The notes beneath the pieces were generated by a model. The model made no database searches. It was not told the DNA's origin and saw nothing but the letters and a program-made list of their open reading frames with translations. From NCBI GenBank assembly GCA_010365215.1, contig JAAFGT010000029.1, positions 11,084 through 54,325 on the forward strand: DNA of 43,242 bases, read 5' to 3'. Numbering within the stretch: the first letter of the stretch is position 1; every line of letters begins with the position of its first letter. A program made the position numbers and the translations under genes. Origin of the DNA: Acidipila sp. GTDB lineage: Bacteria; Acidobacteriota; Terriglobia; Acidiferrales; UBA7541. Below, in pieces: positions 8,673-11,581 of the stretch.

Positions 8673-10425
<1,753 letters not shown>

Positions 10426-10530: not shown

Positions 10531-10575
10531 CGGCACGCAAAAAAGAATTACAAGCAAGAATTAAAGGAGCCGTCC

Positions 10576-11106
10576 ATGGCCACAGTACCACCCCTCCCAC
10601 GCGACAAGGCTGCGGAACAGCTAAAGCCGATCTACGACAGCATGACCGGGAAATTCGGGAAAATGCCGAACTTTTTCGCGTTGATGGCGCATCGCCCGGA
10701 GGTGCTGAAGAATTTTCTGCCGCTCTATGCGGCGGTGACCGGTGAAGGCTCGGTGGAACCAAAGCTCAAGGAGTTGGCCTACCTGAAAACTTCGCTGGTG
10801 AACGGCTGTAACTATTGAACGCGCGCGCATACCGCTTCGGCGAAGCGGGTGGGCGTCACCGACGAACAGATTCAGGCGCTTACTTTTTACCGGCACAGCA
10901 AGCTGTTTAACGACAAGGAAAAAGCGGTCCTTCTGCACGCGGAGCGGATGACCCGCGGCGCAGCGGCGATGCGCGAAGGATCGCTCGAAGAGCTGGCCAA
11001 GCATTTCACGCCTGAGCAGATCGTGGAGCTGACCCTGATGGTCTGCGCGGCAAACTTCACCAACCGCTTTAATGACGCGCTGCAGGCGGAGCCGGATTTG
11101 GGCTGA
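10576..11106 (+). CDS. AhpD-like (carboxymuconolactone decarboxylase family) selenoprotein, Sec81 encoded by TGA
   Basis: One frame of 176 residues interrupted by a single TGA at 10816-10818. The family motif around it reads NGCNY-U-TRAH: Cys78, two residues, TGA at position 81, three residues, His85. This is exactly the CxxCxxxH redox site of AhpD/CMD proteins with the second cysteine replaced. Family sequence continues on both sides in the same frame with normal codon use, and a SECIS-like hairpin starts 13 bases after the TGA. The likely role is thiol-dependent peroxide reduction in the cytoplasm. The ATG has an AAAGGAG site. A nonsense mutation is the alternative, but the position of the stop makes selenocysteine much more likely. 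Standard gene callers would split it at 10818. Confidence 0.8.
10832..10848 (+). promoter_or_regulatory. Candidate bacterial SECIS element
   Basis: CCGCTTC (10832-10838), loop GGC (10839-10841), GAAGCGG (10842-10848): a perfect 7-bp stem. The apical loop begins 20 bases after the TGA and its first two bases are G, which meets the published general description of bacterial SECIS hairpins (loop some 16-37 bases downstream, G at the start of the loop). It lies inside the coding sequence, as expected in bacteria. Confidence 0.65.
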
Positions 11107-11161: not shown

Positions 11162-11581
11162 CTATTTTTTTTCGCCGGCGTTCTGCTCGTCCTCCACGAG
11201 CCGCAGCGCAGCGGAGTTCATGCAGTAACGCAGGCCGGTAGGCCTCGGGCCATCGGGGAAGACGTGACCCAGATGAGCATCGCAGCGGCTGCAGGTCACC
11301 TCCGTGCGGCTCATGCCGTGACTCACGTCGGTGATCTCCTCTACGCTTTCTTCGCCGAGCGGCGCCGAGAAACTGGGCCAGCCGGTGCCGGATTCGAATT
11401 TGGCTTGCGAACTGAAGAGTGGCTGCCCGCAGCATACGCAGGCGTACACGCCTTCGTCGTGACTGTCCGCGTATTCGCCGGTGCCGGGAGGCTCAGTTCC
11501 CTTCCGCCGCGTGACTTGATATTGCTCGGGCGTAAGCTGCCGGCGCCATTCGGCGTCGGTCTTGTTCACTTTCTCTGTCAT
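11162..11581 (-). CDS. msrB: Peptide methionine-R-sulfoxide reductase MsrB
   Basis: A 139-residue cytoplasmic repair enzyme that reduces methionine-R-sulfoxide in proteins. The zinc-binding pairs are in CVCCGQPLF (near residue 50) and [12 protein letters not shown] (near residue 98). GTGWPSF and the catalytic RYCMNSAAL (near residue 121) are all present, so the active residue is cysteine, not selenocysteine. The start at 11581 has a GAGGGA site. It is convergent with the AhpD-like gene, 55 bp apart. It reads out from the same divergent side as kdsB, which ends 20 bp upstream in the same direction, so both may be one transcript. Confidence 0.95.

Follow-up and report, generated by a model that had tools for sequence, protein, structure and literature searches.

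The locus described here raises the question of whether an in-frame TGA in the gene of an AhpD-like protein is read as selenocysteine (Sec) or ends translation. The gene lies in a 43,242-nucleotide stretch of Acidipila sp. DNA, the whole of which was analysed and is termed the window (Table 1). Its reading frame starts at an ATG (10576), ends at a second TGA (11104-11106) and contains one internal stop only, at which mechanical ORF calling splits the gene into two separate ORFs (10576-10818 and 10849-11106). Residues 41-119, a region that runs across the TGA, match the CMD family of Pfam (PF02627) against a cut-off of 23 bits, and the protein also exceeds the curated cut-off of TIGR00778 (47.4 versus 27.8 bits), which places it in the CMD/AhpD-like superfamily. 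Family sequence is found in frame on both sides of the TGA, as in bacterial selenoproteins, and the single stop occupies the position of the second cysteine of the redox motif (C78, TGA81, H85), exactly where the sequence-only reading of this DNA had placed it. The open frame itself is little evidence, because 36 TGAs in the window, including the gene's own, lie between open stretches of no fewer than 60 codons. With the comparative data given below, the gene is predicted to encode a genuine Sec-containing AhpD-like protein, in which Sec would be inserted at UGA81, with a probability of roughly 96%.

Table 1. Positions in the window of the selenoprotein gene, its signals and its two neighbours.
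Feature	Position	Strand	Basis or remark
AhpD-like selenoprotein CDS	10576..11106	+	176 residues, Sec predicted at 81; Pfam CMD match of 70.2 bits spanning the TGA
In-frame TGA, predicted selenocysteine codon 81	10816..10818	+	TGA 23/39, Cys 16/39 in relatives covering the site
Redox motif C78-N-Y-U81-T-R-A-H85	10807..10830	+	Alignment with PA0269 C48 to H55
Bacterial SECIS core, 7-bp stem and GGC loop, over codons 86-91	10832..10848	+	Geometry, covariation, recoding, fold
AAGGAG, Shine-Dalgarno-like	10564..10569	+	6 nt upstream of the ATG; read directly from the sequence
CTP synthase, divergent neighbour	8673..10346	-	Outside the selenoprotein system
Methionine sulfoxide reductase B (Pfam SelR domain), convergent neighbour	11162..11581	-	Cys form RYCMNSAA; outside the system

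The occurrence of the TGA was analysed in related genes. A scan of genome contigs yielded 132 stretches, among which 42 loci encode a relative. Residue 81 lies outside three of these (L056, L063 and L064); in the remaining 39 the codon is TGA (23 genes) or TGC or TGT (16 genes), and no other codon occurs, so that cysteine was indeed found where the sequence-only reading had suggested looking for it. Each TGA row of the alignment carries one stop in the aligned stretch, and the Cys rows carry none. The 27 closest relatives (L023-L049, 55-72% identity) comprise 18 TGA and 9 Cys genes. Of 396 genomes of the phylum that were drawn separately, five contained a match at an E-value of 1e-40 or better, the own genome among them; three of the other four matches contain one internal TGA and one does not, and two of these three are the genomes of L027 and L028 again (L069 and L070 were taken as the same records). 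The records of the clade are titled Acidobacteria and Rokubacteria. In the Rokubacteria/NC10 relatives L050-L054 (from position 2001, + strand), all five of which carry TGA, the CxxU motif is followed by ATHN, which brings the histidine one residue nearer to the Sec. This spacing matches that of the debrominase Bmp8 (CKSH), unlike the spacing in the clade of the window protein.

The hairpin downstream of the TGA (CCGCTTC-GGC-GAAGCGG) begins 13 nt after the codon, with the loop at 20 nt, as had been read from the letters alone. The constraints listed for bacterial SECIS elements in a 2026 review (PMC13188914) are a loop of 3-9 nt, a stem of 4-16 bp, a G in the first two loop positions, a distance of 16-37 nt from the UGA and an MFE of at most -7.5; the hairpin, with its GGC loop, 7 bp, 20 nt and -20.9 kcal/mol (40-nt fold), lies within all of them. 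A perfect 7-bp stem that starts 10-20 nt downstream, with a loop of 3-8 nt, follows only 5 of the 1033 TGA trinucleotides on the two strands of the window, and the gene's own TGA is the only one of the five with the exact geometry. When residues 82-100 were recoded synonymously, with the protein kept, such a stem appeared in 35 of 20000 draws. The folding energy was unexceptional, both at 40 nt (z -1.94; 8 of 200 shuffles as good) and at 51 nt (z -0.79; 37 of 200), and as sole evidence for a SECIS it was dropped as too weak.

The pairing itself is conserved among the close TGA genes. In 19 such sequences, including that of the window, all 133 pair cells are standard and all 19 stems are fully paired. 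Compensatory double changes were observed at three of the seven pairs, from C-G to U-A at two and from U-A to C-G at one. Eight cells are doubly changed, versus a shuffled mean of 1.7, and none of 500 shuffles reached this number; the number of pairs with a compensatory change was matched in 16 of 500 and the number of additional pair types in 179, figures that are not to be read as probabilities, as the sequences share descent. Two of the compensatory changes replace an amino acid (Thr by Ile at codon 86 and Arg by Gln at codon 91); since the pairing is kept despite these amino-acid changes, the RNA pairing is what is conserved. The stem is mostly broken in the nine close Cys genes, where pairing is kept in 30 of 63 cells and compensatory changes are absent. 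The hairpin had been described as a SECIS from its position, and its covariation bears this out. It is these comparative data, rather than folding energy or open frames, that carry the case for the SECIS and for Sec.

The genome of the window (4.1 Mb, 97.79% complete) was searched for the Sec machinery, the presence of which had been deduced from the candidate gene. SelA (545 bits), SelB (366.5 bits), a tRNA-Sec with anticodon TCA (58.8 bits) and SelD (365.6 bits) were all found, each above its curated score. The SelD gene (L018, 1400-2490 on the - strand, G000:C88) contains an in-frame TGA of its own, in AAG-U-AAKLSPG. In 14 control genomes, the searches for SelB, SelD and tRNA-Sec gave some match in every case, above the cut-off in 2, 2 and 5 genomes, respectively, while SelA was matched in four and above the cut-off in one. 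A tRNA of the own genome that ARAGORN names tRNA-Ser also just passes the gathering score of tRNA-Sec (47.3 bits). Only strong matches at the curated level were therefore counted.

Machinery and codon were then compared in the 32 genomes of L023-L054 (23 TGA and 9 Cys). SelA was detected over the cut-off in all 23 TGA genomes and in 6 of the 9 Cys genomes, SelB in 21 and 6, and tRNA-Sec at an E-value of 1e-9 in 20 and 5, respectively. ARAGORN calls tRNA-SeC(tca) at 26 of the 27 loci behind the tRNA-Sec matches, including all 20 in TGA genomes; the exception is in a Cys genome (G020). Among the TGA genomes, SelB over the cut-off was absent from G001 (sub-cut-off pieces only, one of them at a contig start) and G006, and tRNA-Sec at 1e-9 was not found in G004, G006 and G018; the records are titled as MAGs. 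Among the Cys genomes, no SelA, SelB or tRNA-Sec was found in those of L044 (G022) and L047 (G025), and in that of L038 (G016) SelA is matched in part only (positions 1-282 of 455), with no SelB or tRNA-Sec found in the draft. The genome of L035 (G013) has SelB alone of the three, while those of L041, L042, L045, L046 and L049 have all three by these searches; a gene can thus be of the Cys form in a genome that keeps the machinery.

Other readings of the TGA and of the hairpin were weighed against this evidence. The TGA could simply terminate translation, or could stem from a sequencing error or a pseudogene mutation, in which case the product would be an 80-residue fragment or a decayed gene; this would agree with the two ORFs of mechanical calling and with the many TGAs of the window that sit between open stretches. 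The same codon is TGA, however, in 23 relatives from separate genomes, each with one stop and with conserved sequence on both sides, the hairpin covaries and the Sec machinery is present. Because of the comparative data this reading is refuted, unless all 23 contigs share one artefact, and its remaining probability is negligible; an error for TGC or TGT, which the sequence-only reading had named as a danger, is excluded because TGA recurs at the same codon in so many separate genomes. A genome-wide reassignment of TGA to one of the standard amino acids, for instance Trp or Gly, would also place an in-frame TGA within a conserved protein, but it is scarcely conceivable here: the gene's own terminator is TGA, which is also the case in 6 of 18 close TGA homologues, the site holds Cys in relatives rather than Trp or Gly, the genome carries a tRNA-Sec(TCA) together with SelA, SelB and SelD, and the adjoining CTP synthase frame of 557 residues follows the standard code throughout. 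The hairpin, for its part, might be a by-product of the conserved codons for ASAKR and no SECIS at all. A87, S88 and K90 are indeed kept in the aligned Cys forms too, but the rarity of the stem among synonymous recodings, the compensatory changes at three pairs, two of them altering amino acids, and the loss of most of the stem in Cys relatives with a similar peptide make this explanation very improbable.

Sec insertion at codon 81 is thus retained as the preferred reading. With the ribosome positioned at UGA81, SelB carrying Sec-tRNA(Sec) would bind the hairpin, and Sec would be inserted in place of termination. Peroxide or disulfide oxidoreductase chemistry is the probable function, by homology. 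The closest solved structures by sequence are those of PA0269 from Pseudomonas aeruginosa (2ijc, E 5.3e-23; 2o4d, E 6.9e-23), a match limited to residues 41-173 of the window protein, in which E36, C48, Y50, C51 and H55 are aligned with E66, C78, Y80, U81 and H85; all five relay residues are present, with Cys in PA0269 where the window protein has the predicted Sec. The spacing of the five-residue relay (E, C, Y/H, C(U), H) is likewise retained. This proton relay has been likened to E118, C130, H132, C133 and H137 of Mycobacterium tuberculosis AhpD, and PA0269 was reported to reduce H2O2 in a FOX assay (PMC3141380). Alignment of residues 65-101 with positions 117-153 of the AhpD model TIGR00777 puts E66, C78, U81 and H85 on 118, 130, 133 and 137, on the assumption that the numbering of the model is that of the M. 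tuberculosis protein. U81 would accordingly stand in for the second catalytic cysteine (Cys51 of PA0269, Cys133 of M. tuberculosis AhpD). It may attack an oxidised substrate, such as a hydroperoxide, and go on to form a selenenylsulfide with C78; E66, Y80 and H85 would complete the relay, and the cycle would be closed by a reductant of the thioredoxin type. An AlphaFold2 model with Cys in place of Sec (pLDDT 92.6) resembled AhpD-like structures with TM scores (query) of 0.69-0.87 for 37 chains at an E-value of 0.001 or better. The protein scores below the cut-off for canonical AhpD (TIGR00777; 21.3 versus 191.95 bits). Pairing of AhpC with AhpD is the textbook arrangement; no AhpC over the curated cut-off was found in the genome, the four matches to AhpC models all lying below it, and the classical role of an AhpC adaptor is therefore not supported.

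A Sec protein need not be a peroxidase, and the gene could instead encode a reductase resembling Bmp8, for example a reductive dehalogenase based on Sec. Bmp8 shares the fold, gives the lowest E-value in the fold comparison (1.8e-9, TM 0.83) and also matches in sequence (E 3.2e-16), its CMYC being aligned with CNYU. In the same alignment, however, E66 is placed opposite W and H85 opposite F, the histidine of Bmp8 lying one residue earlier, whereas PA0269, which is closer by sequence, keeps the full relay; the adjacent genes, moreover, encode CTP synthase and MsrB. A dehalogenase is therefore considered unlikely, though less remote than the readings without Sec, and oxidoreductase chemistry of the PA0269 kind is preferred. 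Guilt by association via neighbouring genes was also tried and yielded nothing. In an all-versus-all comparison of flanks of 32 relatives (up to 2 kb per side) and of the 4 kb around the window gene, no conserved operon partners were found, no neighbour cluster spanned more than five loci and there was no neighbourhood common to the clade.

AhpD-like proteins with CxxU are a known kind, as the sequence-only reading had correctly stated. They are on record from the Sargasso Sea (2005; 27 sequences, COG2128; PMC1088965) and from the GOS data (2008; AhpD-like 1 and 2; PMC2398784), and the 2026 review places AhpD-type selenoproteins under TIGR01926, PF02627, NF041238, NF041047 and NF041537 (PMC13188914). 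Judged by their published descriptions, the Sargasso and GOS proteins share with the window protein the superfamily, the CxxU motif and a bacterial SECIS just downstream; they come from marine and mixed metagenomes, whereas the clade of the window protein comes from records titled Acidobacteria and Rokubacteria. With C in place of U, the window protein lies below the cut-off of the peroxidase-related enzymes of TIGR01926 (76.5 versus 81.8 bits), and five close relatives score 73.2-80.4; a relative of 45% identity, L071, passes (84.3). The best-scoring NCBIfam model, NF053654 (GroundWater_YciW, YciW-related (seleno)protein), is matched over nearly its full length at 82.9 bits, far under its cut-off of 310, and eight relatives tested score 64.1-108. 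None of the NCBIfam selenoprotein models listed reached its cut-off for the window protein or for the eight relatives scanned.

Selenoproteins have precedents in the phylum as well: a 2006 survey counted four selenoproteins of three families in Acidobacteria (PMC1794560), and the description of deep-Sep mentions three known selenoproteins in one Acidobacteriota genome (PMC12013277). No report on the present clade was found in the open-licence literature by title and abstract; the groundwater MAG selenoprotein data of Deng et al. 2026, as cited in PMC13188914, may include it. What is modestly new is a branch outside the catalogued models and its Sec/Cys history. In environmental genomes, genes of this type are likely to carry wrong annotations, because gene calling cuts the protein in two and the score stays below the cut-off of each NCBIfam selenoprotein model listed.

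The history of Sec and Cys in the clade was traced on a 35-row tree, built with residue 81 masked out and without L055-L064. Of the protein alignments, A3 and A4 lack L028, the start of which is missing; A3 is also without L042, L051, L052, L054 and the more distant L055-L064, and A4 without L056 and L060-L064. At least four switches between Sec and Cys are indicated by the tree within the family of 28 members. A two-state model gave a probability of Sec of 0.99 for the ancestor of the family, 0.91-0.94 for that of L038 and L039 and 0.99 for that of L033, L044 and L047. On these values the clade looks ancestrally Sec, and two Sec-to-Cys changes appear well supported. Support for the pair L038/L039 is 100/96, while the group L033/L044/L047 has only 87/73, inside a clade at 100/99. 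The nodes of L035 and the Bryobacterales have probabilities of Sec of 0.54-0.66; there may have been either one Sec-to-Cys change with a return to Sec in L043 or two losses. L071 lies inside the family on a very long branch (1.44), with its placement unsure.

L038 has a Cys codon, yet a 6-bp stem with a loop is present in the equivalent place (2241-2272, + strand). Its energy is unremarkable, with 191 of 200 shuffles folding at least as well, and the stem is read as a putative SECIS remnant by homology with the sister gene L039, which has TGA, SelA, SelB and tRNA-Sec. The Acidobacteria/Rokubacteria clade is likely to be a selenoprotein subfamily of its own, ancestrally with Sec, in which Sec was replaced by Cys several times and in which L038 would be caught shortly after the switch. 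According to the 2026 review, Sec-to-Cys changes are rare in bacteria and documented mainly for FdhA and SelD (PMC13188914); the clade, if this history is true, would add a thiol oxidoreductase to these cases. Its sister genes with Sec and with Cys make up a small and dense set, in which the SECIS is intact, decaying or lost, and this set is useful for asking why bacteria abandon Sec in a thiol oxidoreductase.

Additional candidates were seen in the genome of the window. The CMD model has four members there, three of which contain one TGA each, all in a CxxU motif, while the fourth (L066) is without CxxC; all three redox-type CMD proteins found in the genome are thus of the CxxU form. L021 (1471-2031 on the - strand, G000:C86) is AhpD-like and carries its in-frame TGA within CDYU-IQSH; a 7-bp hairpin, the loop of which is GGC, starts 13 nt downstream. 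L022 (1270-1839 on the + strand, G000:C2), also AhpD-like, has the TGA in CHYU-IESH and a 7-bp hairpin with a GUU loop; it exceeds the cut-off of TIGR01926 (113.7 bits) and is adjoined downstream, on the same strand, by an open frame (1840-2200, +). Two peroxiredoxin-like frames, L102 (G000:C16, TSGU) and L103 (G000:C41, U-PFC), contain an in-frame TGA as well, followed by SECIS-like hairpins with GGA and GUC loops. The shuffle z-scores of the hairpins of L021, L022, L102 and L103 are between -0.6 and -1.8. Together with SelD and the gene of the window, six candidate selenoproteins were thus encountered in this genome without a systematic search.
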